In this document: positions 14,285 through 36,283 of the stretch, piece by piece
How positions within the stretch are numbered: the first letter of the stretch is position 1
How the letters are laid out: every line of letters starts with the position of its first letter
Assembly (NCBI GenBank): GCA_947646735.1
Contig: CANTFK010000189.1
Coordinates: 124,001-188,000 of the forward strand
Direction: 5' to 3'
Origin: Peronospora farinosa
Taxonomy: Eukaryota > Oomycota > Peronosporomycetes > Peronosporales > Peronosporaceae
DNA length: 64,000 nt
Translations under genes and position numbers: made by a program
The notes under the pieces: model-generated
Database searches by the model: none
What the model saw: only the letters and a program-made list of their open reading frames with translations
What the model was told of the DNA's origin: nothing

Positions 14285-14298
14285 CCATCCCCCGTTTT
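14285..14298 (-). promoter_or_regulatory. Element 1 polypurine tract
   Basis: On the minus strand AAAACGGGGGATGG abuts the LTR start TGTAACAGGG. This is the normal position and composition of the plus-strand primer of LTR retrotransposons, and it fixes the direction of the element. Confidence 0.8.
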
Positions 14299-14389
14299 AG
14301 AACGATGTTTACATTTTGTAAAACATCGCCTAGGAGACAGAGAGACTACGAGCCGTTATAAACGCGCCGCTTTAGTCTACTCAATTCTC

Positions 14390-15646
14390 ATGCCACCTAA
14401 ACGTGGTAAGGCTGATGGGTCGCCTGCAAAGGCACCCATGCAGTCCAGCACTAAGCGCACGCGCCGCGATTTATCGCAGCCGTCGCAAAGTGCGTCAGGC
14501 ACTGGGGTGAATCTTTCATCTCACTGTAATGTGGATGAAGATCCATCTTTCATTGTAGACTACAATGAGACCACACCACTGCCATCACCCCAAAGTGGCG
14601 ATGAGCATAGTGCATTGATGGGACATATGTCCCCATCATTTGAGGCATCCGTCCTTGAGGAAGCATCTATGCTTCCTACTAGCGAAGGTAAAACCCCGTC
14701 GTCTGCGCCTACGAGCGCAGCGACTAAGACTGAGCACGCTACTTCGAAAGGAGTAGTCGCGACTCAGTCAGATGTAACTTCTCAAGCTGATGTCTTGACA
14801 ATCCATAATGGAGAGTCAGACTCAGGTGAGTGTGAGCTTAAAGCTCCACCAAGTACACCTTCGGCCTCACTAGCCCGCCGTCGCGAGGGCAGCTACGTGA
14901 GTGGTGGCTTGCCAACAATGCCACCTCCATCCGAGTGGATAAACTCGAAGGCGTCGAGTGCAGCGCTTTTGCAGCGTGCAACTATTGACGCTCAAAAGTT
15001 TTATAGCGTCTTTCCGTTGTGGAAAAAGCAGAGCAAAGCACTTGGTCGTGCTTTCCCAATTCCTGTCGTGCTGCGTTCTAACGAAACAGCCGACGAATAT
15101 GAAGCTGAACTTCGGCGCCGTGTAACGTTGCATGAAGATGCAACGAAACAGCGGTCGCAGCGAATCAGCTTCGCCATGAAGCGTGCGCATGAAATCTTGG
15201 GTGGTAAGCGACCCCCAATTAATTCTCACCACGCTTCTGCTGATAGTCCTTCCGGACCTAGCAGAAAGAAGACAGCTGGTGCTGCTTCACATAAGCAGCC
15301 ACCAGCCCAGGCACGTCGACGCGCAAAGCGTCCACAGGATCCCACGAGTCAAAGCTCGTTGGGTAACCCTTCCACTGGACCAGGATTTGAAGCTTTCGCT
15401 TCACAAACCGGTGTGCCAACAGCCTTCCAACAAGGAAGCACATGTTCCCTTCCGCGTCCACCAACACAGGTGGCGCCCGATAGGAGTGGCGATTACGCCC
15501 ACCTACTCGCGGCTGCCTACCCTGCTGCTGTTCAGTCGCAGGCTGAGTCCGCTGCGCTGAAGAGGCAGGTGACAGATCTCGAGTCAAGTCTCGCGACTGA
15601 ACTAGGATTTGCGCGATGTGAGGGCGAGATACCATCAGGGGTATGA
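14390..15646 (+). CDS. Antisense accessory gene of element 1 (418 aa)
   Basis: A complete ATG-to-stop frame on the strand opposite to gag-pol, starting 105 bp from the LTR edge and ending inside pol. I do not recognise a family. Visible parts: N-terminal basic cluster (KRTRRD, residues 22-27); Ser/Thr/Pro-rich, low-complexity residues 30-185; a probably folded, helix-rich block (about 186-275: SEWINSKASSAALLQRATID, FPIPVVLRSNETADEYE, then Arg/Lys-rich helices); a bipartite basic stretch (RKKTAGAASHKQPPAQARRR, 292-311) that could be a nuclear signal; a Pro/Gln-rich linker; and a C-terminal coiled-coil-like helix (about 366-406, SAALKRQVTDLESSLATEL). The last 390 bp are antisense to the chromodomain and integrase linker. 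A 418-codon frame free of stops, next to sense genes with at least six breaks, argues that it is a real gene. Elements 2 and 3 have counterparts at the same place. Function unknown. Confidence 0.75.
   Translation: MPPKRGKADGSPAKAPMQSSTKRTRRDLSQPSQSASGTGVNLSSHCNVDEDPSFIVDYNETTPLPSPQSGDEHSALMGHMSPSFEASVLEEASMLPTSEGKTPSSAPTSAATKTEHATSKGVVATQSDVTSQADVLTIHNGESDSGECELKAPPSTPSASLARRREGSYVSGGLPTMPPPSEWINSKASSAALLQRATIDAQKFYSVFPLWKKQSKALGRAFPIPVVLRSNETADEYEAELRRRVTLHEDATKQRSQRISFAMKRAHEILGGKRPPINSHHASADSPSGPSRKKTAGAASHKQPPAQARRRAKRPQDPTSQSSLGNPSTGPGFEAFASQTGVPTAFQQGSTCSLPRPPTQVAPDRSGDYAHLLAAAYPAAVQSQAESAALKRQVTDLESSLATELGFARCEGEIPSGV
15258..15635 (-). pseudogene. Element 1 chromodomain segment
   Basis: Residues about 56-118 of this minus-strand frame read PPVLVDAEGNMCFLVGRLL, KRKLQILVQWKGYPTSFDSW and LRVDVPGLVAAYV, a clear chromodomain. 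It lies in another frame from the integrase C-terminus (15532-15963), so a frame break separates them. The whole segment is antisense to the 418-aa gene at 14390-15646. Confidence 0.75.
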
Positions 15647-16829
15647 CCGCCTGAAGACCCGTTTGGACATCTTAGAGCGACTGGTGATGAGAGACCCGCG
15701 CCAAGCGCGGAGTCCTCCTCGATCGCCGAGTCCTCTATCGCCTCGTTCGTATACGGGAAGCCTCTCGGCTTCCTCGTCGCCTGATAGGTCGCGACGCTCG
15801 ACTCACAGTCGACATCACCATCGGTCTCGTTAGACCGATGTGTACATGTGATCTCTTTTGGATCCACATACCGTTTCAGACGACCCACGTAAAATACGGG
15901 GTGCGTCTTAATATACGGTGGGAGAGTGAGCCTATAATTTAGGTCTCCAACTTCTTCAACCACTGTAAAGGGCCCAATGAATCGGGGCGATAGTTTAGTA
16001 GTACCACCAGGTAGTACATAAATTGCATGTTTAGGTAGGGTAGCAGTACTTTGTCCCCCACACTAAAGTGTTCATTGTTTTTGCGACCATGTTGGTCTGC
16101 ATATTGTTTTTGCTTGTCCTGTGCGCTTGCCATCGCGTCACGGACTTTACGTGTGATGGCTAATCGCTCATCCACAAAGCGCTGAGCTTCGCTCACGCTT
16201 TTAGCATCCAGCTCGCCTATGACGCCTCCAAGAGGTCGTTCATGGGTCGACGCTGTTGATAACACTATAGTGTCATCATCAAGGAGCACTGGCATTTCTT
16301 GCCGTGTCTCCTCTGTGACACCTATAGGTGACGTGATCACTGCTAAATGAGCAGTGTCACTAGGGCAACCTTGGCCCTTTTTGGTATTCGCACAGAGCGA
16401 AGTGAGGGGCCCTCCCCCACTAAGACTCGGGTTGCGTACAAACGAGACTGGCGTTCGAGGATGACGCAGTCCATTAATGTAAAACGGTGTTTCATCCGTA
16501 CTGGCGTGAACACTGTTATTAATAGCGAGCTCCACTAATGGCAATTGCTTGCTCCATTCTTTGGGAGTCGCTACTGTGCGCAACACATCCGCCACAACTT
16601 GATTGGCCCTTTCTGTTTGGCCATAGGTCTGGGGATGATCAGCGGTTGACATGTGGAGCTTGCTTCCCAGCAGCTCAAACACATGTCGCCAAAACCCCGA
16701 CGTAAAACGCGGATCCCGGTCCGATGCTATGGACTCGGGCATCCCGTGTAGTCGATACACGTGATCCAGAAACAAGAGGGCAGCCTCTTTTCCTGAGATC
16801 TTGGTGCTACATGGTGCCAAATGCACCAT
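15532..16829 (-). pseudogene. Element 1 integrase core and C-terminus (broken)
   Basis: Two minus-strand frames. 15939-16829 holds the core: LFLDHVYRLHGMPESIASDR (second catalytic Asp in SDRDPRF), STADHPQTYGQTERANQVV (catalytic Glu) and PLVELAINNSVHASTDETPF. 15532-15963 continues with VEEVGDLNYRLTLPP and YIKTHPVFYVGRLKRYV, the C-terminal SH3-like module. A frame break near 15950 separates them. The first catalytic Asp is in the neighbouring frame at 16807-17616. Confidence 0.8.
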
Positions 16830-17616
16830 CTTGCTCAGTTTTGTCTACAAAGACGACGAGCCCCATCCTGCCTTTATGGTCAGGCGGTACGCCAAACATG
16901 AAGTCCAAAGTGACCGACTTCCAACATTCATTTGGAATCGGCAGTGGCTTCAGTGGCGCACTGTTCGAAGGTACAGGCTTTATGCGCTGACACTCTTCGC
17001 AAGAGCGAATATAGTTGTCCACCCACCGATATAGGTGGGGCCACCAAAATTCCTCTGACACTCGTAAGAATGTCTTTTCACGGCCCAGATGCCCACTAGA
17101 TGGCGCATCATGGCACTCGTGAAGTATCATCAGCTTGAGATCTGTGTCATGAGGGATATAGATTCTCAAGGGATCACAACGTGACATTTGATGCCATAAC
17201 AGGCCATCACTGTAACTAAAGCGATTTAGTGTCGCTTTGAGGTGCGACGGAAGGGTAACCTTGCGTCCACCAAAATGATCCAACAGCAGGCGACAATGTT
17301 CGTCCTGACTGTAACACTCCTTGATATCGGAGGCCATTGAGCTCGTCAGATGATAGGCCTTCATGGCTGCCAATGTGGACGACTCAACTTGTGCTTTCGC
17401 ACGAGACACACTATCCTGGTGTCTTGCCTCGAAGTCTGGTCTGCGCGATAACACGTCAGCCAAGACATTCGACTTACCCGGCTTATATTCCACTTTGAGA
17501 TTAAATTCAGATAAGAATGTTAGCCATCTTGCCATTATCGGCGAGAGGTGCGGTGAATTTATAGAGGTCCGCAGTGATGCGTGATCCGTATAAACCACAA
17601 AAGGTTCGGTGCCCAA
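16807..17616 (-). pseudogene. Element 1 RNase H end and integrase zinc finger
   Basis: A 269-codon frame: [20 protein letters not shown] and VEYKPGKSNVLADVLSRRPD (end of RNase H), the HHCC zinc-binding domain (LHECHDAPSSGHLGREKT and RSCEECQRIKP) and the start of the integrase core with the first catalytic Asp (SVTLDFMFGVPPDHKGR). The zinc ligands are intact. The next frame starts near 16829. Confidence 0.8.
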
Positions 17617-17729
17617 GAGGTGAACGCAAAACTTTACAAGAGCATACTCAATTGAAGTAGCTCCTTATCATGCACAGGGTCATTCAGCTCTGCCGCTTAT
17701 AAAAGCCTAGACGGATACGAAATGACACG

Positions 17730-18777
17730 TTAAACGCCGTTGTCATCCTTTTGCATGAGCGCGCTGCCGATTGCGAAATTGCTTGCATCGCAGACGACGC
17801 TAAAGGGCTTATCCGCGTCTGGAAATGCCAAGACCGGTGCTTCTACAAGAGATTGCTTCACTGAAGTGAACGCATCTTCTTGTTCCTTTGACCAAGTCCA
17901 TTCTGTATCCTTTTTTCTAAAGGTCAGAGAATGGCTTGGTCTGCTCCGCATAATTCTTGCTGTACTTATGCAAATCTTTAGCGAGTCCAAGGAATTGGCG
18001 CAGATCCTTCACATTACGTGGGACTGGCCATTCCTTTACAGCCTTTACCTTTTCTGCGTCTGCTCGTTTGCCGTGTGCACCAACAATGCAGCCCAGTACA
18101 GGTATCTCGGGGACCCTTATTACGCACTTTTGCAAGTTCACGTATAATTGGGCGTCACCCAGAGTCTGCAAAACAGCGTCTAAATGACGCTTGTGCGACT
18201 CTATCGCGCTCAGACCGTCCTCCGCCCTACTATGCACGAATACATCATCAAAGTAATGGGGCGCGTAGGCACGGTGCTGACGCATCACGTGAGCCACTAC
18301 TCGGTTGAATGTTGCTGGAGCATTTTTCAACCCTTGTGGCATCACAAGCCACTCCCACAGCATACCGCTTGGGGTGCTTAGTGCCGTTTTGGCTACATCA
18401 ATATCTCTCATGAGAACTTGATAGTAGCCATCCTTCAGATCCAACGCGGAAAAGAAAGTTGACTTTCCCATGGAATTCAACAAGACACCTTTCCGCGGGA
18501 TCGGCGTTTGAGCTGGAATGGTGGCCGTGTTCAACTTATTATAAGCATGAACCACGCGCCATCCACCCGTGGCTTTACGCACACAGAAGGTCGGGCTGCA
18601 GTGCGGCGACTTGCTCTCACGTACATTACCCGCCTTGGCTCGCTTGGTGAAGAACTTAGCGATGTAATCGACTTGTTCCTTCGGCAACGTCCATTGCCAG
18701 GTCACACAATACTTGGTGCCAGGAGTCAGGTCAATTTCGTGGCTGGTGCTCCTATCGGCCGGTAGGCGGCTCGGCAC
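17730..18777 (-). pseudogene. Element 1 reverse transcriptase and RNase H start (broken)
   Basis: Two overlapping minus-strand frames. 17917-18777 (286 codons) is [57 protein letters not shown] (catalytic Asp), [16 protein letters not shown] and APHYFDDVFVHSRA (catalytic YFDD). 17730-17990 continues with VEAPVLAFPDADKPFSVVCD, the first RNase H Asp. The joint near 17950 is a frame break, and further pieces of RNase H (17620-17730) are also shifted. Confidence 0.85.
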
Positions 18778-20011
18778 TTCTGCGGAAACAAATCACGGTG
18801 TTTCCACAGAACATCATAGAACGGGCTGTCCTTCAAGGCATCCCAGCCTTGAGCAGCGAACCGTTTCTTTTTGTCGGTCTCCAAGACGCTCTCATCCATT
18901 GTAGATGAAAAGCAACAGTCCACCACGTTCTCTTCTGGAACTGGTGCGACTATCTCGTGGATCTTTCCTTCCTTTAGTTCGGACAGGAACAGATCCCACG
19001 TCATCTCAAAGAGATTTACTATCTCCTCGGCAGATGCCAAGACACTTTGGAGCACCTCAACTGAGGATGCCTCCGGCACTTTGTCTTCGACGGCCTCGAA
19101 AAACTCGTTCGTAGGTCCGTCCTCTTGGACCGAGACTGATCCAAGGGTCACTCGTTTCGACGTGCCTTTGGTCGTCTTAATACGTCTGGTGCTCGTTCTT
19201 CGAGTCACCACGACCTTTGACCTGGAAGAAGGTGTCGTTGCTATCTCAGCTAACGCACTCCTTCCAACCGCACCATGCTTATGGTTCTGTGCCGGTTCTT
19301 GTGGCGCTTGACTTCCTGTCAGCCCACCATCAACTGCCACAGGCTCTCGGCTTTTTGCAGGACTATTGGACGCACGACTACCTGTCATCGCCCCATTCAC
19401 TACATTAGTCTCCTCGAGCTGAATAGGAATATGTTTCATCGGACTTGCTGTCAAGACACTTCCAACTACACCACTCCTTTCGATTTGGGTAGTACCTAAT
19501 GCCGATTGACATACCGTCATCGCACCCTCGACTGTGTTGGACACAGCATCAGTCACATAAGCCTCTCGCAAGAGCACATCCTTTCCGATATCCTGCGTAG
19601 AGTTAGCGACTGTGCATGTACGCCAGTCTATCCATGGTTGGTGTTTAGCCGACCAAGGCATGCCTAGGATGAGGTCATACGGACTCTCCATGTCTAGCAC
19701 TGTTAACTCTCTTTACAAGAGAAGTCACTGAAACTGAAGGCGAGTTCAACTTGAACTCCCTCCGATTTAACGAGCGCGCCGTTCGCTAAACGAACGATCA
19801 CCTCTTCTCGTTTGTCATCTCGGCAAAGCGACTCAGAACTCGCCAGACTCCTTTTCAGAGCCGCGAATTTCACAAAGTTTTGTGATGCACCCGAATCCAC
19901 GAGAAGAGTTATCACTTGGTCATAGCCTCGTACTCGAGCGCTATAGACCAAAAGGGTTGAGGTCCGACCTTTCGGAACCTCAGGGACTATGCTACCCATT
20001 TGTTCGATCAC
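18726..20011 (-). pseudogene. Element 1 protease and protease-RT linker (broken)
   Basis: 19703-20011 contains the retropepsin active site (ITLLVDSGASQNFVKFAAL). After a one-base break near 19700-19715, 18726-19700 continues with VLDMESPYDLILGMPWSAKH and DWRTC, the second half of the fold, then a long Ser/Thr/Glu-rich linker into RT. The Asp-Ser-Gly triplet is intact. The enzyme would process Gag and Pol; here it is interrupted. Confidence 0.8.
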
Positions 20012-20061
20012 TCTGAACTTAGGGGTAGCTTCAGAGTCCTCGACAGTAGTGCATCCCGCTC

Positions 20062-21135
20062 CTAATGCGCTCCCGCATTTCCCGACCCATCTTGGGCAGG
20101 TGCTGAACCCGTGCGACGTGCACGGTTCTTCGAACCACCCTTCGGGTTGGGCGACCTTTTGCTGGCTGCCTTAGCACCAGCAGCTACTTTGGCATAGCAG
20201 CGAGCCATAATATGGTCTCGCTTGCCGTACTTGTAGCAGATCACATCTGCATTGCCTAACTCTATAGATGTGGCATCAGACCTTTCGGCCGACGGCCTGT
20301 AATAGGCTGTCGCCGAGGCGCTGTTGTAGGATTGCTCCTCAACTAAGGTAATGTCGATTGTCTCCTTCATCGTCGCTGGCACCTTTCTGAAAAGGGCCTG
20401 ACGCGATGGGCCGTGCCTAAGGCCATTCATGAACGTGGCCACCTTGATACGTTCCGGTATCGGACCCACATTAATGGACGCCGACAGCGAACGCATCTCC
20501 TGCACAAATTCTTTCAGAGAGCGTTTCGCCTGTCGTGCTCCAAAGAAGCGCGCCATAAGCAACACTTCGTTGTTAGGCAGCTGATACATGGCGCGAATCT
20601 TTGTTTTAAAGATCGCCCATGATGGAAATGCATCAGCATTAGCCATCAGCGCAGAGTATGCCCACTCTGACGCTTTGCCACGCAAGTTGGACATGGCATA
20701 CGACACTATTCTGGTGTCGTCTTCGATGAGCTGCGCCACTCCACATTGCTCAACTGCTAATAGCCAGTAAACAATTGTGTGAGGGCTAGTTCCATCGAAC
20801 TTCGGAGGGTCCATCCGAATGGGCCTCGGTTGATTAGGCCGGGCAGAAAGCGTCTCAACAGTTCTGTTGAGCACATCATTATGTGCCTGCTTAAGCCTAA
20901 GCTCATCCTGAGTCTTATTGATGGACTCAGCCGTGCCTTGGCTGTTTGCCTCGGACGCGTTTCTGGGCTGTCCGAGCACAAACGCCTCAAATTGCTCCAA
21001 CTGAGCAACATGTTGCTCAGGAGTACAACCCAAGCGATTGGCCAGGGCTTGTTCACCAAGTCCCTGCGCCATATGCTCTGCCTGCTGCCTTTGGGAGAGG
21101 TGAAGTAAGTATCTCCAGTCCATATTAAGGACCAT
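20062..21135 (-). CDS. gag: Element 1 Gag
   Basis: The longest surviving sense frame of element 1. The most likely start is the ATG at 21135 or the next at 21123 (MDWRYLLHLS); the frame upstream reaches the primer-binding site. An N-terminal helical region rich in Gln and Glu is followed by the Gag core (MDPPKFDGTSPHTIVYWLLA, SNLRGKASEWAYSALMAN, FKTKIRAMYQLPNNEVLLMA, LKEFVQEMRSL) and a Lys/Arg-rich tail. The zinc knuckle is damaged: CYKYGKRDHIMARC has Tyr in place of the second Cys, so RNA packaging would probably be weakened. It ends one frame away from the protease. Confidence 0.75.
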   Translation of the reverse strand: MVLNMDWRYLLHLSQRQQAEHMAQGLGEQALANRLGCTPEQHVAQLEQFEAFVLGQPRNASEANSQGTAESINKTQDELRLKQAHNDVLNRTVETLSARPNQPRPIRMDPPKFDGTSPHTIVYWLLAVEQCGVAQLIEDDTRIVSYAMSNLRGKASEWAYSALMANADAFPSWAIFKTKIRAMYQLPNNEVLLMARFFGARQAKRSLKEFVQEMRSLSASINVGPIPERIKVATFMNGLRHGPSRQALFRKVPATMKETIDITLVEEQSYNSASATAYYRPSAERSDATSIELGNADVICYKYGKRDHIMARCYAKVAAGAKAASKRSPNPKGGSKNRARRTGSAPAQDGSGNAGAH

Positions 21136-21174
21136 CTTAACCACACGCACGCTCAGAGAGACGAGTCGTGGCGA

Positions 21175-21192
21175 GGACTACTAGTGCTACCA
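21175..21192 (-). promoter_or_regulatory. Element 1 primer-binding site
   Basis: On the minus strand TGGTAGCACTAGTAGTCC lies two bases from the 5' LTR (right LTR). The first nine bases are identical to the sites of element 2 (29806-29814) and element 3 (29007-29015), so the three elements use the same or a similar tRNA primer. Confidence 0.75.
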
Positions 21193-21194
21193 AG

Positions 21195-21795
21195 TGTAAC
21201 GGGCACTTCTACGAAGTTGTCTCGTGCTACTAGCACACACCTTATGCACAAGCGAGGAAGCGGTTTGACCGTCTTACCTTCGCGTGCGAGGGTGGTTAGG
21301 AGGTTGGTCGACTGCTTAAGCAGTCGTACCACCAGTTGCCTCTCGCTTAAGCGAGAGTGCAACGAACTTCTTAACAAGAAGGCACCGACACCACGCAGAA
21401 GCTTTTCAGCTTCTCGTGCGTGGTGCGTATGTTTAAGCAAATTCAAGACTGAGCTATATTTAATTAATTATAACTAAATATGTACTTAACTACTGACTGG
21501 CTATATATATATATAGAGAGAGATCGAATACGCGACTCTTTAGAAGCGTATCCTGTCGCATGATCTTAAATCTAGATTTGAGATCGCAACTGACGTCCTT
21601 CTGGACGTCGCGATGCCTAGCTTCAACTAGCGTCATCCCTTCTCATGTGAATCCATCAATGGATATCACATTCACGAGGGTGGATCACATTTGTGTATCG
21701 CACCCAAGTGACAGGTCAAAAGTAATCATGGATACTTTTAGACCAAACATTAAGTATATTACTTAATGTTACATGTAACTAGATGCCTTGTTACA
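21195..21795 (-). repeat. Element 1 5' LTR
   Basis: Starts TGTAACGGG and ends CTTGTTACA on the plus strand, followed by the target duplication CGCTT (21796-21800). It differs from 13685-14284 by a few substitutions and short indels, including a TA-repeat length change near 21505 and one extra G near 21680. Confidence 0.95.
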
Positions 21796-21800
21796 CGCTT

Positions 21801-22669: not shown

Positions 22670-22743
22670 AGCAAACAGTCACATTAGTAACTGTTTAGTG
22701 ACTAGCACTTGTTAATTTTTTTTATTTAAACAACTGTAACGCA

Positions 22744-23652
22744 ATGACCAAGTCAATGCGCGTTACTGCCAAGGCGGCAGAGAGTTCGACTGCACGCCTG
22801 TATGCAGCCGCTGCTGAGGCTTCACAGACTCAGCCAGTAGACACTAATGTGTGTGCTGGAAGCCATTACTAGCCTGCAACATCTGTCGTAGGTTCACGTG
22901 GCGCTTCGCCATGTAAGAATGTTGACCCAGAGTTAGTCGTTGACTATTGTGCGAATAATTTTGCACTAAGAATGATATCACATCAATGCATTTCTTCAGT
23001 AGCGATGGTACAACCCACACCATAAGCGTGAAGCTGACGCGATACCCCAAGCTTAAACCGCATTTATTCTCAACGTTCTAAACGTTGGACGTGATCCTTG
23101 GTTTCAAAAACTTACTTCTAATAGCAATAGGTTTAAGAAACAATAACTCGTCCGACGTCTCTTCACGTCACGATGGTTCAGCAAGCGCTTTATAAAAAAA
23201 GCGCTTACCACCGTTCGAGTCCACCAGCGAATGCGGTGGTGGAGGTAAAACCCTGTCCGATTCTTTTATCGGACTTGTCTGCTGAGTTAGGCGGGGTTGA
23301 CCGCGTAACTCGTGAGCTTCGTCGTGATCTTGATCACGAGTGGGGTAAGCGTTGCCGCTTGATGTACATTGTGCGACAGCTTGAGTATAAACATGAGAAG
23401 TATAGGGTTAACAATGCTGTCGCACTGTTGAAAAATGAACGGCGACTTTATTATCTGAGTAATGAGCTGGCGACAGCTCGTCAGGAGATCGTCCAATATC
23501 ATGGGAAGATCTCATCTCTACACGACCAGATATCGTACCTGGTTCGTGACTACAAAAATCTGAAGGGGATTCTTGAGAGTAATGGCTATCTTCGTCGTTC
23601 GAAGAAGCCGTGTACTGAACGTACGGACGAAGACGTCCCACGTAAAACGTAG
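22744..23652 (+). pseudogene. Antisense accessory gene remnant of element 3
   Basis: On the strand opposite to gag-pol, an ATG at 22744, 88 bp from the LTR edge, opens a frame of 42 codons (Ala/Ser-rich) ending in TAG. The same frame is open again from the ATG at 23173 for 159 codons to 23652, with several stops between. The 159-codon part is largely one long helix-forming, heptad-like segment (residues about 45-135: RELRRDLDHEWGKRCRLMY, LLKNERRLYYLSNELATARQ, ISYLVRDYKNLKGILES) with a basic end. It is antisense to the integrase C-terminus and the integrase-chromodomain linker, as in elements 1 and 2. I read it as a decayed copy of the same type of gene. No known family recognised. Confidence 0.55.
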
Positions 23653-25746: not shown

Positions 25747-25770
25747 TAGTACAAAGAATTTACATAAACA

Positions 25771-26585: not shown

Positions 26586-26964
26586 AGGATTTGGCTTCAG
26601 TGAATCACATGATTGCGATGTGTATCTCTCAATCCGAGTCTTCTCATCAAGGACACTTTCGTTTATTGATGAGCTGCTGAGAACTCGTTTAATTTCGGCG
26701 AATACTGTTGCTTACCTGATATCGGTCACGTATTCGTCCTCTGCGACGATTACACTGATCTGCTCGACTTTGCCGCTACGCAGATCGTGCGAGAACCTTT
26801 AAGGCTCAAGCACAGGCAACTGAAGTATCTCCGAAGTTAACTTTAAAGGCGAAATCAGATCAAGCGTACATGCGCCTACGTTTGATCCGTCATTTACCAA
26901 GACGTTCAACGTCTCAGTTACTTCCTGGCGACTTATTCCCGCAGGCTCGATGGAACTTTTTCAA

Positions 26965-28330
26965 TCGAATTCCTCTTGCTGTGGCTGCGCAACCACAGCG
27001 AGATCCTCTACGATCAACTATCCAGTTGATCTAGTATTACCGTGTTACCGCTTCTGGGCAACCGGTTTGCTCTTCTGTAAATGCTGCCCCCTAGGCGAGC
27101 ATTCATGTCCCGGTCCTCTCGACTTATTCGAGTGGTGGAACTTCGGCGCTGCCTGTGCTTTTGCACAGCCGCCGGCAGCTTGCTCCACAGTGTGACTGTC
27201 GGTCACACTGAGTTCTTGTGCAGTCGTACTAGCGACAGAAACACAAGTGAGTCCATCACCCTCACTCGTAGTACATTTACACGCTTGTAAACGCTCCAGA
27301 CGTTCATTGGATGGCCATCTGATGAACAAGCGACAGGCATCTTCACAGCTCGATGCTGCCAGCTGACCCATGGCTTGTACCTTCTGAGCCATGGTAATCC
27401 TAGGATGACATCAAATTTGTCATCCAGGTCGAGTACGATGAAATCATCATCGTACTTTTTGCCTTCAAGCGTGTAGTGAATTCCCACTACACGTTTCTTT
27501 ACTGTTACGGATGCGCAAGTTGCAAGGCGCACCGTCAGTCTCGTTGGAAGGGTCTTGCACTTAACATATGTGAGCCTTCGATCATCTAGCGACTGGCATC
27601 GAACAAAGTAGTTCGACGCCCCAGAATCAACTAGGGTGCGAAGTGACATGTTCTGTGTCACTTCGATCTTCAAGGTGATGAGGGATACCTAACTACTAGG
27701 AGCGGCAAACAACACAGTGACTGTGTGTTTTTTAAGCAGCCATCGTCAGGAGTCCCGTAGAGTTTCTTAACGTTAATGGATCAGTAGGGCATCCCTCTGA
27801 CCCCGACCGTTTTTTATGGTCCACCAAGTTGTTGCGATTTTGCAGCAGCGTGGGTCCCACGTCTCTAGCCCTTATTGGAAGACGAACGATCGTCACTCCC
27901 ATTGTTACGAGACACAGGGTGTGAGCACTACACTCATAAACGTAGTTACCCATCTTTTGACAGCAATTGCACTTATGCGATCGCTTGTATCCTGGAGAGC
28001 GAGCGACCTCGCTCTCTACATAGGAGAGGTCCAGTGGCTCTGGACATCCGCTTTCCTGTTTTCACGGTGGACGATAGTATCCCGAGTGGGCATGAGCCTC
28101 TTGCAGGCTGAAGTCGTCCTTTTTCGATGCAGAGATCGCTTAATCAAGCGACTCCAATCCCAAGCGGAACAGGTGGGTCTTGACAAGAACATCTGTCAGG
28201 CCCATGATGAGTACAGTAATTTGCGTGTGTTCATCTATTCAATTAAGCACGATACAACTAACAAGGTATCGCACGTGTTAATCGTAAGCGTGCATATCAC
28301 GCTTACATTATATCATGTGAAGTGAGCCCT
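26965..28330 (-). repeat. Inverted repeat arm 1 (element 3 gag/protease)
   Basis: About 1.35 kb that recurs almost unchanged, in opposite orientation, at 38316-39655. Only scattered single-base differences were seen, plus a small length difference at one end near 28290-28320. The arms are about 10 kb apart, with element 2 and the right LTR of element 3 between them. Confidence 0.85.
27203..27673 (-). pseudogene. Element 3 protease
   Basis: A 156-codon frame with the retropepsin active site (SLRTLVDSGASNYFVRCQSL) and second half (DDKFDVILGLPWLRRYKPWV). The fold elements and catalytic triplet look intact, but gag upstream and RT downstream are in other frames. The nearly identical copy at 38953-39423 differs at a few residues (Thr to Ala before the active site, Leu to Arg near the end). 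Confidence 0.75.
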
Positions 28331-28895
28331 GCATCGTCGCAAGGCAGTATTATTTAGAAACGTGTGCTCAAGCTGCGCTTGGAGACATTTTTACGTTGGG
28401 AAAACGTATGGGTCATGCAGTTTGAGCCCTAAGGCCAAGCTTTGGCACGTCCTGCCAAGTTCGACATGACGAACTTGACCTTCATCGCATCGTCATCGAT
28501 GCGACGAGCCTCAATGGCATCGTCGAGCTCGACGAACCATCTTAACAAGGAGTCGCTTTCGACTGCCTTGTACTTGGAGGGATCAATCTTCAAGGACTCG
28601 GGTCGACGTTTATACGTCTACCCAGCAGCAACAGCACTAGCCTGCTGTTGTCTCGACAGTTCAGACTGTTGAGCACCCTGCTGCATCAACAAGTCAGCTT
28701 GTTGAGCGCCTTGTTTAACAACAGGTATACCAATTGAGAACCTTGCTCCTCTAGCAAGGTGAGCTTCTTTACAACTTCGTCAAGTTCATGTTGTATGAGC
28801 TTAACGATGGTCGCATGGTGTTCGTCTCCGCTAAGATAGAGAAACATGGCACCGACGGTGGCATCGCCGACAGTTTCAGCTATACGCTGTACCAT
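27732..28895 (-). pseudogene. Element 3 gag (broken)
   Basis: The start is probably the ATG at 28895 (MVQRIAETVGDATVGAMFLY), 112 bp from the PBS; 69 codons are open. The core is visible at 28441-28620 in other frames (DPSKYKAVESDSLLRWFVEL, DDAMKVKFVMSNLAGRAKAW). The zinc knuckle near 27940-27985 reads CNCCQKMGNYVYEC, with Asn where the His should be; the inverted copy at 38660-38700 has the same change, so it predates the duplication. Confidence 0.65.
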
Positions 28896-29006
28896 TTTTT
28901 ATTCAAGATCACATAAATGGCAAAAGTATTCACGCGATGCGTGTTGACTAGCTACATCCGCTGGTTCTATAGCGGATGAGTCGTTGATCTTTAAGAGGAG
29001 CACGAA

Positions 29007-29015
29007 GTGCTACCA
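29007..29015 (-). promoter_or_regulatory. Element 3 primer-binding site
   Basis: TGGTAGCAC on the minus strand, two bases from the right LTR edge near 29018, identical in its first nine bases to those of elements 1 and 2. Confidence 0.65.
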
Positions 29016-29017
29016 GG

Positions 29018-29163
29018 TTAGACGGAGCACCCTCTGATAATACTGCCACATCAAAGTTTACTCACAATGAAACAGTGCAAACAGGTGCTCGTAATCTTAC
29101 GTACATAGAGACAGCTGTATAGATAAACGACACGCTTAGATATAATAAAAGAGAGAGCTGTAT
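29018..29163 (-). repeat. Element 3 right (5') LTR, first part
   Basis: Begins TTAGACGGAGCACCCTC, matching TGTAAAGGGGCACCCTCC at 22207 with the first bases lost, and stops at CTGTAT where element 2 is inserted. The LTR continues at 36930 (CTTATATAGTTAAAC), matching CTGTATGTAATATAGTTAAAC in the left LTR. Confidence 0.7.
29159..29163. repeat. Target site duplication of element 2
   Basis: TGTAT left of the 5' LTR is repeated at 36925-36929 right of the 3' LTR. Confidence 0.9.
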
Positions 29164-29803
29164 TGTAACGGGGTTACACGACGGTTGTAGCGTCTTTCCG
29201 AGAGTTTACGCTTAAACTCTCCTTTCTATTGCATATAATGCATTATTATACTTCTCTTTAGAGAGGTATTAAGTATGAGCGTTAAAGATACGGTATTCGG
29301 TAATACCGTATCTTATCGATTGGGATTCGATAAATCACTAACGCTGTATTAAGTACATATACACAGATGTTTAGACGATACGTCGTCCAATAGCAAAGTC
29401 TGCATATAATAATTACTATTATAGTAATTAATCTAGTGTAGTGTACTTAGAGTAGGACTATTCATAAAATCTTAAAGCATAAATATAATCAGTTCTCCTT
29501 TTGAGTTTAAGATCGCAAGTCGTTCTGACTTGTTCTCTTGTGCACTTCGTGCGTTGGTTCTCTGAACCCTTAAGCTTCTAGCTTGTTCTTGCACTCTGTG
29601 CGTTGGTTCTCTGAACCTTAAGCTTATTGCTAGACTGACTAAAGTTTCTTTCCTAGTTCCTTAGAACAGGGTGACTTTAAGTCGTTTAATTAGTTCCTTA
29701 GAACTAAGTGGATTTTAGCCTTAACTCTATTTAGTTCTCTAGAACTAAGAGGATTCCAGCCGAAAGTCTTCGTCTGGCTAAGGAGCTGTGTAGCTCCGCT
29801 ACA
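29164..29803 (+). repeat. Element 2 5' LTR
   Basis: Starts TGTAACGGGGTTACA (itself an inverted repeat) and ends AGCTCCGCTACA. It contains a 12-bp perfect stem, AGATACGGTATT/AATACCGTATCT (29286-29313, loop 4), followed by TTATCGA/TCGATAA (29313-29333), both enclosed by AGCGTTA/TAACGCT. Two degenerate repeats with GCACTTCGTGCGTTGGTTCT-like units lie near 29540-29625. Confidence 0.95.
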
Positions 29804-29805
29804 CT

Positions 29806-29814
29806 TGGTAGCAC
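29806..29814 (+). promoter_or_regulatory. Element 2 primer-binding site
   Basis: TGGTAGCAC two bases after the 5' LTR, shared with elements 1 and 3; the following bases (TTGTAGTC) differ slightly. Confidence 0.75.
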
Positions 29815-29863
29815 TTGTAGTCAATCCTACACCTGAGTCCTTAAGGACTGACCCTCTGTGAGA

Positions 29864-30606
29864 ATGGAGAATCAAAATCACCTCTCTGAGGCACAACGAC
29901 TCGCCTTAGATAAACTATCTGCGTTCGTCGGGCCTGATCAAATCGAGGCCCTTTTGGCCCAAGGCCCCGAGGTTCTAAATGCTCGCCTTGAGGCCTTTAT
30001 GCGTTATGAGGCGACGCTCCTCGGGCAGGTCCATGACCAGGCAGCGTCAGCTGCGCCTACACAGTACATTCCGGTACCTGTGCCCGATGCAGAGCCAAAG
30101 GCTCGTCCACTTGTTTTAAATGTAAAGACCTTCGAGGGGAAGGAGGGAGAGAACCTTCTCCTCTGGATCCGAGAAGTTGAAATGGCAATGGATGCCGCCA
30201 TGCTTGTATCCGATAAGCAACGAGTTGGCTTGGCCATTTCAAAGCTCGGTGGAAGAGCTAGAGAGTGGGCTCTAACGAGCGATGTCTCTGTAAATGCTGC
30301 ATTCCCCACATGGGAACTGCTTAAAAACAATTAACTTGTGTGTTTGCACCGCCTAATCAGGCTTATCGTGTGCGCTCACGCTTCTTAGCTACCCGACAGG
30401 GTAAGAAAGAATTGTCGGACTATGTCCAAGAGTTGAGAACTCTCATTGCTGCTATGCAGCAGGACCCACTGGCAGAGGAAGTCCGAGTAACCATTTTTAT
30501 GGAGGGACTTCGCACTGGGGTCGCCAGGACGGAAGTTTTCCGTGTCCAGCCTTCAACTTTTGAGGAGGCAGTAAGCGTAGCATTTAACGCTAAATTTAAT
30601 TTTTAA
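29864..30606 (+). pseudogene. gag: Element 2 Gag core (one frameshift)
   Basis: ATG at 29864 ([20 protein letters not shown]). The first frame runs to a stop at 30334 ([44 protein letters not shown]); the second picks up at about 30340 and runs to 30606 (FAPPNQAYRVRSRFLATRQG, KKELSDYVQELRTLIAAM, TIFMEGLRTGVARTEVF). The break is a small indel near 30330. Gag would form the particle shell. The zinc knuckle lies further on in another frame, at about 30725-30766. Confidence 0.75.
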
Positions 30607-30724
30607 TCTGCTCGATATGGTATGCCTTGGTATAAATCAAATACCTCTAATAGGGCGGAACCCATGGATCTCAGCCATGCTGAAGAAGCTTAGCTTCAAG
30701 CTGCTGAACAGCAAGGTAACATCC

Positions 30725-30766
30725 GTAGATGTTATATGTGCGGAAGCACTAGGCATCTCCGCCCTA
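30725..30766 (+). pseudogene. Element 2 nucleocapsid zinc knuckle
   Basis: CYMCGSTRHLRPSC is a complete C-x2-C-x4-H-x4-C knuckle, in a frame different from the Gag core, with a basic tail (LRKQ). It is preceded by a stop-containing Gln/Ala stretch and followed by a Pro/Asn-rich spacer into the protease. Confidence 0.7.
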
Positions 30767-30950
30767 GCTGTCCGTTGCGAAAGCAACCTTCAAATCGGCA
30801 AAGCCGAAACCCTGCTCCTAACCAAAAGGCGAGCACCGCAGGGGAAAACGTCAACTCCCAGTAGGCGCGGGGCGCCCTACTGGGAAAGAACTAAGTTCTG
30901 CTGGATCTTTAGGAGGTAAAGGTAAACAGGGCTTAGCCCCAGGTGGTTCT

Positions 30951-31421
30951 GTGGATGCTCCCATAGAACAAGATTACAAGCCAGGCTTGTTGGTTGTGTC
31001 GGCAACCGTTAAGGGTTTTGAGAAACCATGGTCAATTTTTATTGACTCAGGGGCGTCAGGTAATTATGTCCGACGTCGTTCCCTTGAAGGGAGTCAGCTG
31101 TATGCTGAGGCGCTAGAAGCGCAAGAGGGTGACAGTATAACCGTACGTCTCGCAACAGGTGTACGTGTCACCGTTCCTAAAGTTCCGTTGAACTTAAGTG
31201 TGAAGTTCTTAGACTTCAATAGCGTTGAACGCTGTCTTGTCCTAGATTTGGACTCGAGATATGATCTCATTTTTGATATGACCTGGCTGGAACGCCACGA
31301 GCCATGGATCGATTGGAGATCCAATACCTTAGGCGCAACGCGCAATGTTCCTAGCGAAGCTTTGGAGAGTCATGAACCCACCTTCGCTAGGAAAAAAAGT
31401 GCTATTGGCGCGAGCCATTAA
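30951..31421 (+). pseudogene. Element 2 protease
   Basis: A 156-codon frame: PWSIFIDSGASGNYVRRRSL (active site Asp-Ser-Gly), GVRVTVPKVPLNLSV and YDLIFDMTWLERHEPWIDWR (second half; other copies have LGMPW here). It ends with a stop at 31421, just before the long RT frame. It starts without ATG, as expected inside a polyprotein. Confidence 0.75.
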
Positions 31422-31435
31422 CTGATTCAGTTAGT

Positions 31436-33451
31436 GTGCTGGACATTGGAGTGTCTGAGTTGATAAACTCCGATGTCAACAATAATAGTGTCGAGCAGAG
31501 CTCAATGACACTTAGTGGAGCGGCACGTACTTCGTTGAGTGATACTCAAAGTAATATGGAGACACTGGATGTCGGTAATGACATCGGCTCTCGTATAGAG
31601 CAAGTGAAGGTCGATGACCTTGTTAGTGAAGTCACTGGTACTAGTGACCCACTGGGTGTCGGTAATGACATCGGCCCTCGCATAGGGCAAGTAAACGACA
31701 AGGGGTCTGTTGACCTTGGGGATGATAATATCCCAAGTACTTTAAAAAGTACGGTCTCTTCAATGAGACGGCAGCGTCGCCAGATGGCGGCTGCGAGACG
31801 CAAAGCGTCTGTTTTATCGCATAGTAATGTTAATGACCAGTTGTACACCCTGGTCAACGGAGTGACAGGTGATGTAGATGGTGAGGTTGACCTTAAGGCC
31901 CTCCCATCATTAAATGCTCTTTTAGAGCTAGACGAAATGTCTGTGGATGAATTTCATCAGGCCTTGAAGGCAGGTGCTCTATCCGATATGGTGGTCATTC
32001 GACCTAACCTCGAGCTGAACTCATCCTCGCTTGTCGATGAGACAGTCCTTGAAGATACCAAAGCGGCACTAAGTGCACGTATTGGGGCATCTATTCTGAA
32101 AAACCCTTCAGATCCCTACTATCCTTTGGTAAAGGAATTCCAGGACGTGGTGTGTCACGATCCACCGTCGGTTCTACCACCTGATAGGGGCGTACGTCAT
32201 AAAATTGACTTGGTTCCCGGAACCAAATACTGTGTAACACGGCAGTGGCCTTTACCCAAAGAACAGTGTGACGTCATTGACGAGTTCTTTCGTGCAAAGC
32301 ACGCGGCGGGCATGGTGCGTGAGAGTAAATCCCCGCACTCGACACCCACTTTCTGTGTTAAGAAACCAAATGGTAAATGGCGTATCGTTCATGCTTATAA
32401 TAAGCTCAATGCGGCCACTATACCTGCACAGACACCGATACCTAGAAAGGATGTTCTTCAGAACAATATGGTCGATTGTACCATGTACAGTGCGCTCGAC
32501 TTAGTCGATGGTTATTACCAATTGCTCATGCGAGCTAGCGATATTCCGCTTACTGCTGTTAGTAATCCGAGCGGTATGCTCTGGGAGTGGTTAGTAATGC
32601 CCCAGGGGCTATCTAATGCTCCGGCTACGTTTAACCGGTTGGTGACGCAATTGATTCGACCCCATCGAAGTTATGCACAGACGTACTTTGATGACATTTT
32701 TGTCCATAGCCGAGCTGAACATGGGCGGTCAGATATTGAGAGCCATATTGTTCATTTACGAGCAGTGCTCGAGTGCATGCGCACTAATAAACTATATGCT
32801 AATGCATCTAAGTGCATCTTCGGGGCCGAAGAGATTCCCTTTCTAGGGTGCTTCATTGGGAAGCGGGGCCTACGAGCGGATCCCGCCAAAGTCAAAGCCA
32901 TAGTCGATTGGCCTGTTCCACAGTCTCAAAAGGACTTGCGTAAATGGCTTGGCCTTGCCAATTACTTACACAAGTACAGCGAGAATTACGCTGATATGGC
33001 TCGGCCGTTATCCAATCTCCTTAAAAAGGATGTGGAATGGTGTTGGCATGCCGAAGACGAAGATGCTTTTCAAGCGGTGAAGGCGAGCCTTCTACATGCT
33101 CCTATTTTGGCTTTGCCAGACCCTGACCGACCGTTTAGCGTCGTCTGTGACGCATCGGACTTTGCCATTGGCAGTGCTCTGTTACAATCAGATGATAAAG
33201 GCCGTGAGCGTGTAATCGCTTTTGAATCTCGCCAGCTGAAAGCTGCACAAAAGAACTATCCAGTTCATGACAAAGAGCTACTTGCGATGAAGTATGCCCT
33301 GGTCAAATTCAGAGTTCATCTGCTGGGCTCAAAGCCTTTTGTGATTTATACCGATCATGCGTCGTTACGCACTGCGACTCAGTCGCCGCATCTCTCGCAG
33401 AGAATGGCCAGATGGCTGTCATTCTTTGCCGAATATAATTTTGAGGTATAA
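31436..33451 (+). pseudogene. pol: Element 2 linker, reverse transcriptase and RNase H
   Basis: A 671-codon frame. Residues 1-230 form an acidic linker with a short internal repeat ([35 protein letters not shown]). RT follows at about 250-560: [89 protein letters not shown] (catalytic YFDD) and [15 protein letters not shown]. RNase H starts with [20 protein letters not shown] and reaches [20 protein letters not shown]. The frame ends at a TAA (33449-33451) where sister copies have Glu in VEYKPG, so this is a point nonsense change. RT active residues are intact. Confidence 0.85.
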
Positions 33452-33475
33452 TATAAGCCGAGCAAGCAAACTGCT

Positions 33476-33871
33476 TTGGCTGATGCGTTGTCACGCAGAC
33501 CTGACTATGAGCTTGCTCATGTGACGACGTTTTCGTCTTCTATCACAGATCTCATTCGTACGGCGTATGCTAAAGATGATCACTGTATAGCGTTGCTACA
33601 TGCTCTTGGCAGTGAGGAGTTTAAAGACACGGACATTAAATTGTCGGCACGATTATGTGCAAGCCTCCATCGATATTCTATCGATGAGGGGCTGTTGTAC
33701 TATCGTACAGATGTAGCGGATCCTCCGCGTATTGTGGTTCCTCATGACGAGGACCTGAAGTATCGTATCCTCAATGAGGTACATGACACCGCCATCGGTG
33801 GTCATTTGGGTCGCGAAAAGACCTATGGGGCAGTATGCCAAAGTTATTGGTGGCCCAAATTATACAAATGA
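33476..33871 (+). pseudogene. Element 2 RNase H end and integrase zinc finger
   Basis: In the same frame class as the upstream polyprotein after its stop: ADALSRRPDYELAHV, then SLHRYSIDEGLLYYRTD, PHDEDLKYRILNEVHDTAIG and GHLGREKTYGAVCQSYWWPK. It ends in a TGA at 33869-33871 directly after the codons for LYK, where element 1 has Trp (YRWVDNYI), a second single-base nonsense change. The His ligands of the HHCC motif are here; the two Cys are in the next segment. Confidence 0.75.
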
Positions 33872-34687
33872 GTGAGTACATATGTGCGCACGTGTGAAAC
33901 GTGTCAACGGGTGAAACCCTGGCCCCATTCGGCAGCGCCGCTGGCTAGCTTGCCTATTCCCACTGGGTGCTGGGAGTCCATTAGTATGGACTTTGTATTT
34001 GGCCTACCAAACGATTCGCAGGGCAATACAGGTATTGTGGTCTTTGTTGACCGTTTGAGCAAGATGGCTCACTTAGCGGCTGTGCCAGATTCGATCGATG
34101 GTATGGGTACAGCGGAGCTGTTTATCGATCGGGTGTTTCGCCAACATGGCTTGCCAGTGGCAATTGTTTCTGATCGTGATCCGCGTTTTACGAGTAAATT
34201 TTGGAAGTCCGTCTTCCAGGTGCTGGGCACCCGTTTGGACATGTCCACAGCGGATCATCCGCAGACCGATGGTCAAACTGAACGCGTAAATCGCGTTGTT
34301 GAAGATATCCTACGCAGCGTTTGTGCTGAAACGCCTAAGCGTTGGAGCGCTATGCTCCCTGTAGTTGAGTTTGCTCTCAATAACTCCGTGCACGCCTCTA
34401 CCGGCTACACTCCGTTCTATGTGAATGGTCTTACACACCCACGCGTTCCGTTAACGCTACCACCGAGTGGTTCAGGGCTTGGTGGGGGAGAGGTTGCCGA
34501 TCGGCTTGCTGATGTCAGCCCTAATACTGTAAAGAAACAGGTGAATGCGTTTCTCGCAACGAGACTGAATGTCTTACGACATGTGCGTGACGCAATGACC
34601 GATAGGCAAGAAAACAAAAAGAACATGCGTATGCTAAAAGCAGAAGTTGTATTAATGATTATGAGGTCGGAGACCAAGTATTATTAA
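33872..34687 (+). pseudogene. Element 2 integrase core
   Basis: Continues in frame after the TGA for 271 codons: VRTCETCQRVKPWPHSAA (Cys ligands), SISMDFVFGLPNDSQGN (first Asp), VAIVSDRDPRFTSKFW (second Asp), DHPQTDGQTERVNRVVEDIL (Glu), VVEFALNNSVHASTGYTPFY. The D-D-E triad and zinc ligands are intact. The frame ends at 34687, shifted from the C-terminal segment. Confidence 0.8.
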
Positions 34688-34737
34688 ATGCTAAAAATCT
34701 ACCTACCAATGTAGTATCCGCTGTCTCTACGACGAAG

Positions 34738-35310
34738 TTGCGCCCGCGCTTTATCGGACCCTTTAAGGTCATTGCCAAGAAAGGCACAGCGTATACGCTT
34801 AACTTGCCGCGCAAATTGCGTACACATCCTGTGTTCTATGTCGCCATGTTGAAACCTTATCGGGATCCGTCCCAAATAGACGCTAAGGCGCTCGCGCCGA
34901 GCCCATTGGCATTGTCGCGGGACGAAGCATCTGCGCCAACATGTCAAGCTGACCCTGCATTCGGGTCCGACTCTCTTCCAGGGACTCCAGCCGGGAGTTC
35001 ATCGTCTGCCTCTCCTCACGAAGGGACCGCACCTCCTGAACAAGCTCGGCATGAGCTTGTACCGATACACCGGCCTCCTCCTCCTTTGCTCGATGCGCAG
35101 GGGAACCTGCAGTTCCACGTGGAGCGTCTACTGCAGAAGCGTCGCCTCCATGGCCAAAACCAGTATCTGGTGAAGTGGCGGGGTTATCCCGAATCGTGGA
35201 ATTCATGGGAGTTTGAGACTCCCCTTCGGCAGGACTGCTCATACGCCGTGGACGTTTTTGAGCGTCGTGCGAAGGGTCTGCCTGTTGGCGCTGACGCTTC
35301 TCACCAGTAA
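34738..35310 (+). pseudogene. Element 2 integrase C-terminus and chromodomain
   Basis: A 190-codon frame: RFIGPFKVIAKKGTAYTLNL and RTHPVFYVAMLKPYRDPSQ (C-terminal module), a Ser/Ala/Pro-rich linker (about residues 45-118), then the chromodomain PPLLDAQGNLQFHVERLLQK, GQNQYLVKWRGYPESWNSWE and YAVDVFERR. The chromodomain looks intact. From 34883 on, the segment is antisense to the 435-codon gene. Confidence 0.75.
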
Positions 35311-36252
35311 TGGTGGGCGTGGGCGTGGGCGGGTTAGCGGCCTCGGCCTGTCGTGGACTCGCGGCTACAGGGGTAGCCGAAACATTAGGCTGCTGGGTAG
35401 CAGGCGCATAATGCGTTCGTTGGGATTTCAACTTTCCCCGGGCCTTCAATTTAGCGTAATCATAACGCATCTTCCGCTCAAGTCGAACATCTGCCACATC
35501 GGCACTTGTCCGTAGGGCCCACATGCTGCTTAAACGTCGCGCATAATGCGCCCAGCGGCTGAAAGCCGTGTCTTCTTCGTCCTCGGTTTCCCCCGCGAAC
35601 AGAAGGATGGGAACACCCTTTATGGGAGGGACTGGCGCACCGCGCACTTGCCTTATAAGGCATGCCAAGTATTGGCTTTGTGTAGTGATGTGGGGTTCCA
35701 GATATCGTTGTCGAAGTGCCGTGCGCGTGGCAACATCCTCAGGAGAAATGGCCTCAGGCCTAATGGTCCAACCAGAAAGGGAATGCCCAGATGCTTCCTT
35801 TAGGCGTTCTTCCACTGTAGGTGGCTTGAACCTGTACTGTCGGTGGTCCTGCAGTCTTGTCATATTCTTCGTCCGGCGCTTGGCGCCTTCCTCTTGGTCG
35901 ATGGACCGCTGTTGCTGCTCGTCGAGTGGGTTAGTAACCGTCGCCGTTGATGATACGTCAGGCGGGTCACGTAACGCTGTTAGCGCATCTGCTGCACCAC
36001 GTTCAGGGAACGGATTCGGTGCATGACGAGTGTCATCTTCACCCGTGAGGGTGGCTAAAGGGGACCCATCGGGTCCCACAAAGACGGTGTCACTTTCGTA
36101 ATCAACCGCTTCGTCAAGGTCGTCTTCAATGAGGTCCCGAAGAGTCTGTGACTCACTATCGGGAGGCGTCGTGTTATGTGCCGTGAACAAACCGTGAGTT
36201 TTTAAACGTTCGCTAAAGCACTACCTCTACGAGGAAAGATGTCGAGTGACAT
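34883..36252 (-). CDS. Antisense accessory gene of element 2 (about 435 aa)
   Basis: On the strand opposite to gag-pol, between pol and the 3' LTR, a frame of 435 codons is open from about 36190 to 34883. It has no ATG at its left edge. An ATG at 36252, 32 bp from the LTR, opens a 16-codon frame (MSLDIFPRRGSALANV) that would enter the long frame if one base changed in the T run near 36199-36203, so the start is probably frameshifted; the next in-frame ATG is at residue 110. Layout: acidic N-terminus (1-100), basic patch (EGAKRRTKNM), helical core (about 115-255, with VPILLFAGETEDEEDTAF), a basic bipartite stretch (EKRQRQQADPSHDAQKRPRR, 297-316), a disordered part, and a C-terminal coiled coil (about 366-423: AELVQEVRSLREERQTMNSR, MQGQLDMLAQML). 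The order of parts matches the element 1 gene, and PVVLRSNETADEYE there resembles PILLFAGETEDEED here. Family unknown. Confidence 0.7.
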
Positions 36253-36270
36253 TCTATGGGAACGTCAGTC

Positions 36271-36283
36271 TGGTGTGGGAGGG
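36271..36283 (+). promoter_or_regulatory. Element 2 polypurine tract
   Basis: TGGTGTGGGAGGG directly precedes the 3' LTR start TGTAACGGGG. Confidence 0.75.

Follow-up and report, generated by a model that had tools for sequence, protein, structure and literature searches.

Antisense genes of long terminal repeat (LTR) elements are known in plants, a fungus and retroviruses, and their role in retrotransposons is presented as open in the available part of a review of such genes (PMC7264820). The genes termed aORF-3R, described from maize (Grande gene23), rice (RIRE2), Silene (Retand), PvRetro13 and Botrytis (Boty), lie between pol and the 3' LTR (2.9-6.6 kb in Retand) and are found in the majority of element copies; their function is given as not known in the sections accessible to us (PMC7264820, PMC11963269). 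According to the same sections, the Grande antisense protein is nuclear and its gene has its own promoter upstream, and 97% of the clusters of Retand code for a TRP28 domain (PMC7264820, PMC11963269). HBZ of human T-cell leukemia virus (HTLV), as described in part of a further paper, is nuclear, carries an activation domain at its N-terminus and a zipper at its C-terminus, and represses sense transcription (PMC3185765). Here we analyze a 64,000-nucleotide stretch of the Peronospora farinosa genome (the window), which contains three related chromodomain Ty3/Gypsy elements (E1, E2 and E3) and a separate element A, and we show that this downy mildew chromodomain lineage carries a genuine antisense protein gene beside its 3' LTR.

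Like aORF-3R in the sections cited above, the gene is antisense, sits in a Gypsy element next to the 3' LTR and is kept in many copies under selection. A difference from aORF-3R is that 422-671 nucleotides (nt) of the gene overlap the chromodomain and linker; ~60-67% of it lies between pol and the 3' LTR. The host group differs as well, and no Pfam domain was found; TRP28 (Transposase_28, PF04195), the domain of the Retand type, gave no match in an hmmscan of the window proteins and five relatives, although a distant relationship is possible. With HTLV-1 HBZ/APH, as far as the cited part describes them, it shares by analogy a place near the 3' LTR and an acidic N-terminal part, a basic region and a C-terminal coiled coil; unlike them, it gave no bZIP match in Pfam scans of the same proteins, in which a coiled coil is predicted, and no sequence relation is claimed. 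A first-pass annotation of the window had set its antisense frames beside plant antisense genes and those of retroviruses, and we judge the comparison with the plant genes and with HTLV a fair analogy.

Two further systems are relevant. Chronos elements, which are Gypsy elements of oomycetes, have a dual RNase H and a pol that ends in a chromodomain, according to the available part of a survey whose main text uses the word "antisense" 0 times (PMC5348765). The elements described here likewise have a chromodomain after integrase (Pfam); as to the dual RNase H, the scanned stretches of E3, a damaged element, show one RNase H, followed by an integrase zinc domain. CERV of the C. elegans element Cer1, from the part of the report available, is a nuclear accessory RNA-export protein made from a spliced sense mRNA (PMC10309623); the protein described here is also an accessory protein of an LTR retrotransposon but is encoded antisense. 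In agreement with the first-pass annotation, we found no antisense gene of an oomycete retrotransposon in the open-licence literature, as covered by titles and abstract openings. As far as tested, what appears to be new here is the host group, the large overprint of chromodomain and linker, and protein domains that seem to bear no relation to those already described. The lineage has hundreds of copies in a single genome and relatives in two downy mildew genera, and its overlap is large enough for selection on the two strands to be compared; it thereby becomes directly testable whether antisense nuclear regulators have evolved in retroelements repeatedly. The genes are annotated as "uncharacterized" in downy mildew proteomes, and naming them would clean the annotation.

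An antisense gene beside the 3' LTR of chromodomain elements

The gene begins ~50-110 bp from the inner edge of the 3' LTR and extends from there across the chromodomain into the integrase-chromodomain linker. In E1, gag-pol lies on the minus strand and the 3' LTR is therefore on the left; in E3 it lies on the plus strand; E2 is a remnant at ~22.4-28.9 kb. The antisense copies, whose families are numbered 1, 2 and 3 after their elements, and the end of E3 pol are as follows:

14286-14389, plus strand: leader of E1 from the LTR edge to the antisense ATG, with TATAAA ~33 bp before the ATG (possible promoter)
14390-15646, plus strand: E1 antisense gene, 418 codons, off the family frame after codon 402 relative to 481-codon relatives
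15576-15764, plus strand: remainder of the family-1 coiled coil with the beginning of the tail, now in another frame, 90% identical to residues 397-459 of the relative P0001
22714-23652, plus strand: E2 antisense remnant, with fragments 22714-22959, 22976-23143 and 23185-23649 representing the N-terminal, core and C-terminal parts of family 2
34883-36190, minus strand: E3 antisense gene, 435 codons from a TTG, overlapping the sense frame at 34883-35310
34738-35310, plus strand: end of E3 pol (sense), with Pfam SH3_Tf2-1 and Chromo above cut-off, that is, integrase C-terminal SH3-like domain, linker and chromodomain

The first-pass annotation had placed antisense frames beside the 3' LTR of all three elements, and we find them at 14390-15646 (plus), 34883-36190 (minus) and, as a related fragment in E2, at 23137-23652 (plus). 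The E2 fragments align to residues 8-88, 247-302 and 434-588 of the family-2 protein P0066. The described course of the frames, reading into pol toward the integrase-chromodomain linker and ending in a coiled coil, is seen in open copies, where it crosses the chromodomain. Element A was said to have no such gene, and six antisense proteins indeed match only E1, E2 and E3 in a search of the window (E 1e-3), with no match in element A. The 418- and 435-codon copies had been taken as intact, and this did not hold: all three window copies are damaged, the E1 frame being broken after codon 402 and the E3 frame lacking the ATG present in open relatives. ATGs had been reported 105, 32 and 88 bp from the LTR edge; the first distance agrees with family-1 relatives, and the second fails, the ATG of E3 at 32 bp belonging to a different frame that stops after 16 codons.

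Relatives were collected from the same assembly (46.85 Mb in 274 contigs), where at least 100 copies of family 1 (of 1180 candidates), at least 97 of family 3 (of 658) and at least 150 of family 2 (of 249) were scored, all three counts being lower bounds. The match was free of stops in 34 of the 50 best rows for family 1 and in 31 of 44 for family 3; thus, on the question raised earlier of whether relatives keep the frame open, many do, in a set retrieved by the antisense protein itself with best scores first and hence biased to conserved copies. The usual full length is 481 codons in family 1 (9/12 copies), 427 in family 3 (7/7) and 588 in family 2 (3/6). Homologous proteins numbered 13 for family 1, 52 for family 3 and 189 for family 2, and the species named among them are Peronospora effusa, P. 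farinosa, P. matthiolae, P. destructor, Hyaloperonospora arabidopsidis and H. brassicae; the top named matches, from P. effusa, were 89%, 92% and 80% identical for families 1, 3 and 2. No Phytophthora name occurred among the matches listed (for family 2, the best 120 of 189) in this exact-word search, in which ~8000 candidates were scored each. Two P. matthiolae clusters of family-2 antisense proteins at 90% (P0077 and P0081) represent 1335 and 524 sequences, respectively, which amounts to a very large expansion retained in a public proteome.

The arrangement of the gene is regular. The distance from the LTR edge to the ATG is 105-106 bp in 11 of 12 family-1 copies (no edge was found for the remaining one), 110 bp in 7/7 family-3 copies and 46-48 bp in 3/3 family-2 copies. 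Unique DNA encodes the N-terminal 60-67% of the gene product; the C-terminal remainder shares its DNA with the end of pol, the sense frame terminating within the antisense gene. The overlap measures 572 nt in 8/12 family-1, 422 nt in 7/7 family-3 and 671 nt in 5/6 family-2 copies, and wherever its length deviates one of the two frames is altered. Its phase is identical in all 17 loci printed, across the three families, and in this tight geometry the wobble position of either strand faces the second codon position of the opposite one. In 11/12 family-1 copies a TATAAA or TATATA occurs 33-34 bp before the ATG, and in 6/7 family-3 copies a TTTAAA at -34 (raw counts), and no TATA-like box precedes the ATG in the three family-2 copies examined. 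Confined to families 1 and 3, these boxes just inward of the LTR are a promoter candidate and no more than a lead. An oomycete initiator motif, YTCANTYY, was found in 2/12 family-1 copies and in none of the other families and was given no weight.

The antisense frame outside pol is open beyond chance and under purifying selection

Outside pol the frame spans 290 (family 1), 286 (family 3) and 364 (family 2) codons. In six copies tested, 0 of 2000 dinucleotide shuffles apiece left it open; one shuffle of L014 (family 3) had another frame open throughout. Within the overlap, we replaced sense codons by synonymous ones drawn from the usage of the rest of pol, and the antisense frame remained open in 40 and 46 of 5000 resamplings for family 1 and in 21 and 9 for family 2, compared with 476 and 402 for family 3. 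When synonymous codons were permuted inside the overlap, it stayed open in 23 and 17 (family 1), 402 and 311 (family 3) and 2 and 7 (family 2) of 5000. In families 1 and 2 the overlap is therefore open more than the sense protein accounts for.

Between the family-3 subfamilies represented by L010 and L065, which are 54% identical outside pol, synonymous and nonsynonymous differences per site were pS 0.63 and pN 0.27, a dN/dS of 0.24, and the differences fell 75/78/153 by antisense codon position. Further pairs with older copies gave 0.22-0.54 outside pol, the maximum being reached with L067, a copy carrying stops. Within families the ratio outside pol was 0.17 (family 3, n=7), 0.54 (family 1, n=12) and 0.47 (family 2, n=3), in copies picked for open frames, of which L045 and L049 have altered C-terminal frames. 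A ratio below 1, suggested at the outset as a check, is thus what we observe outside pol, both between subfamilies and within families.

We also compared shared with singleton variants, on the logic that changes made while the elements were active are common to copies and later ones are private. The comparison drew on 23 loci of family 1, 17 of family 3 and 12 of family 2, window copies included; codons that differed more than once were omitted, as were codon columns filled in <70% of rows. In the antisense frame, shared variants contained relatively fewer amino-acid changes than singletons (pooled odds 0.55, P-value 0.004; single-family odds 0.64, 0.46 and 0.53 for families 1, 3 and 2), the P-values being rough because the copies are akin to one another. 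Two control frames showed no such deficit (odds 1.16 and 1.29; P-values 0.62 and 0.39). Stops were found among 0/146 shared variants of the antisense frame versus 16/282 of the control frames (P-value 0.002). L062 and L063, with equal scores on one contig, may be duplicates, in which case some late changes may count as shared.

Taken together, these results demonstrate that the antisense frame outside pol is under purifying selection, and we regard it as almost certainly a selected protein gene. The accessory gene proposed in the first-pass annotation is strongly supported by homologues in other species, by selection and by the avoidance of stops. That the frames arose by chance or as a by-product held open by the sense gene is highly improbable: the openness of the family-3 overlap is largely explained by the sense gene, and the antisense dN/dS in the overlap of young family-3 copies points the same way (see below), but 286-364 codons lie outside any sense gene, where no shuffle was open in any of the six copies and where purifying selection refutes a by-product origin for that part. 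The antisense transcript itself might instead be what matters, through double-stranded RNA, interference with sense transcription or self-limitation of copy number, with the open frame secondary; non-coding antisense RNAs of retroelements do exist, according to the available part of a review (PMC7264820). We consider this quite improbable, since the codon-position pattern, the dN/dS of 0.24 outside pol, the lack of shared stops and the conservation across species demand a selected protein, although such evidence is compatible with an additional RNA effect.

Selection in the overlap with pol

Where the gene is overprinted on pol, the comparison of subfamilies gives different results for two segments. 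Between subfamilies (L010 and L015 versus L065, effectively one independent pair), the first 200 nt on the chromodomain side were more conserved in sense, with 64% identity versus 55% antisense and a dN/dS of 0.30 versus 0.64-0.67. In the linker, which makes up the rest of the overlap, identity was 49-54% antisense versus 37% sense, with dN/dS of 0.58-0.74 versus 0.90-0.95. Over the entire overlap the two frames were about equal (0.62-0.69 antisense, 0.55-0.56 sense). In young family-3 copies the differences in the overlap fell 54/152/36 by antisense codon position, and the sense strand dominates selection. The possibility that codon substitutions are due wholly to the sense gene, raised in the first-pass annotation, fails outside pol; in the linker the one pair speaks against it, and in the overlap of these young copies it may hold.

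The coiled coil, which lies in the overlap, is the best conserved part of the family-1 protein (mean identity 0.76 versus 0.65 for the core). It is less conserved than the core in family 3 (0.45 versus 0.59) and in family 2 (0.37 versus 0.55). These part-by-part values come from 5/6, 12/42 and 8/35 rows of families 1, 3 and 2.

Relationship of the three families

To examine common origin we compared profiles of the families with the overlap excluded. Families 1 and 3 matched with a score of 41.1 (E 7e-5, hhalign probability 63, 74 columns), compared with 20.5 for the reversed profile and 18.4 for the best of 20 column shuffles. The match is centred on a stretch reading IPVVLxxNET in one family and VPILLxxGET in the other, so that the similar P-[VI]-[VL]-L..ET stretch pointed out in the first-pass annotation lies in a homologous core. 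A common origin of families 1 and 3 is supported by this profile similarity, with some doubt left by the hhalign probability. Family 2 scored 21.0 and 19.9 against families 1 and 3 (best of 20 shuffles 18.2 and 19.2), and its likeness to them outside pol is one short acidic motif resembling DPxLxVDYxxES. The common origin of all three that had been proposed, and the search suggested for it, are therefore borne out for families 1 and 3 and, beyond the short motif, not for family 2.

Over their whole length families 1 and 2 matched with a score of 43, which 0 of 14 shuffles reached. We rejected this match as proof of homology because it falls antisense to the chromodomain, where the sense protein on the other strand forces similarity. 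Families 2 and 3 over their whole length scored 25.1, within the range of shuffles (best 30.8).

It is quite possible, if somewhat short of even odds, that the three antisense genes, or at least that of family 2, are of separate origin, through repeated overprinting at one place. The low family-2 scores set against that of families 1 and 3, and the confinement of the whole-length family 1-2 match to the stretch antisense to the chromodomain, argue for this. Against it, all the families have the gene at the same place, in the same overlap phase and with the same charge layout and a similar acidic motif, and the motif scores lie slightly above all 20 shuffles.

Layout and proposed role of the antisense protein

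The proteins have a common layout, in which an acidic N-terminal part is followed by a helical core of basic charge, by basic patches and finally by a coiled coil, and the similar order of parts described in the first-pass annotation is seen in one protein per family. In these, the net charge of the N-terminal part is -13, -14 and -13 and that of the core +8, +8 and +9 for families 1, 2 and 3. Hydrophobic residues of the coiled coil fall into heptad register more frequently than in the great majority of shuffles, the observed value being reached by 79, 37, 12, 6 and 112 of 5000 shuffles in five proteins. AlphaFold2 predicts a confident core at ~residues 80-250 in family 3 and over most of 200-375 in family 2, with long helices at 369-414 and 460-565 in the family-3 and family-2 models and disorder in much of the remainder. 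Family-1 proteins, among them P0001, P0008 and P0011, end in an Arg-Ser/Pro-rich tail. In family 2, residues ~299-332 of P0066 form a strongly conserved stretch, FEKR..G..Y.LHRLSR..GL.CL.W.D.CP.C, with one His and 3-4 Cys, which is possibly a metal site, judged from its residues and without a family match.

We propose that transcription of the antisense gene in an integrated copy would start at a promoter within or next to the 3' LTR, and that the protein would self-associate via its C-terminal coiled coil. Its basic patches might carry it into the nucleus, where the acidic N-terminal part and basic helical core could bind host transcription, chromatin or RNA factors and so tune the expression, silencing or integration of the element, as HBZ does for HTLV. 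By analogy with HTLV HBZ or Grande gene23, the protein may be a nuclear, self-associating regulator of its element, to which we give slightly less than an even chance. For the whole statement, a genuine selected antisense gene together with the proposed transcription, self-association, nuclear entry and regulatory action, we put the probability at roughly 0.5. On balance doubtful, if possible, is the bolder view that overprinting of the end of pol gave oomycete Gypsy elements an HBZ-like antisense nuclear regulator of their own, with an origin separate from those in retroviruses and plants, and that constraint on the linker is mainly antisense, the antisense protein shaping pol there rather than the other way round.

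Several observations weigh against this proposal. All three window copies are damaged, the case for a nuclear role comes from analogy and from the basic patches, and there was no Pfam or fold match yielding a function. The family-3 overlap alone is not clearly open beyond chance in the codon-usage resampling, and in young family-3 copies the antisense dN/dS in the overlap is 1.9. The pooled contrast of shared and singleton variants in the overlap was not significant for the antisense frame (odds 0.69, P-value 0.25), the single-family contrasts outside pol were weak (P-values 0.17, 0.036 and 0.13 for families 1, 3 and 2), and singleton stops did not differ between antisense and control frames (P-value 0.30).

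The protein could alternatively act in the particle or pre-integration complex, as a coiled-coil partner of Gag, integrase or the chromodomain that aids nuclear entry or target choice. Its gene sits with, and evolves with, the chromodomain end of pol, and the available part of the aORF-3R review proposes a function in retrotransposition or nuclear import (PMC7264820). We think this unlikely: the opposite strand would be neither packaged nor read from genomic RNA, so that making the protein would require antisense transcription of the integrated copy, which is more in keeping with a regulator.

Elements and neighboring sequences in the window

The reverse transcriptases of E1, E2 and E3 are 43-65% identical to one another and 21-29% identical to that of element A. 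The LTRs of E1 and E3 are as follows:

13685-14285, minus strand: 3' LTR of E1, 98.0% identical to 21195-21796 over 604 columns
21195-21796, minus strand: 5' LTR of E1, 98.0% identical to 13685-14285
29164-29803, plus strand: 5' LTR of E3, 97.7% identical to 36284-36924 over 642 columns
36284-36924, plus strand: 3' LTR of E3, 97.7% identical to 29164-29803

On either side of E3, inverted gag-protease copies of the E2 kind lie at 26922-28305 and 38323-39704 and are 97-98% identical, and E3, or the sequence around it, may be embedded in nested family-2 copies that have been rearranged. A minisatellite with a 14-bp unit is present in or at each LTR of element A (2454-2642 and 11086-11358). A 543-codon frame at 40077-41708 (plus strand) encodes a Glycosyltransferase 61 domain (Pfam E 3.6e-16) and is probably a host gene adjoining the nest of elements.

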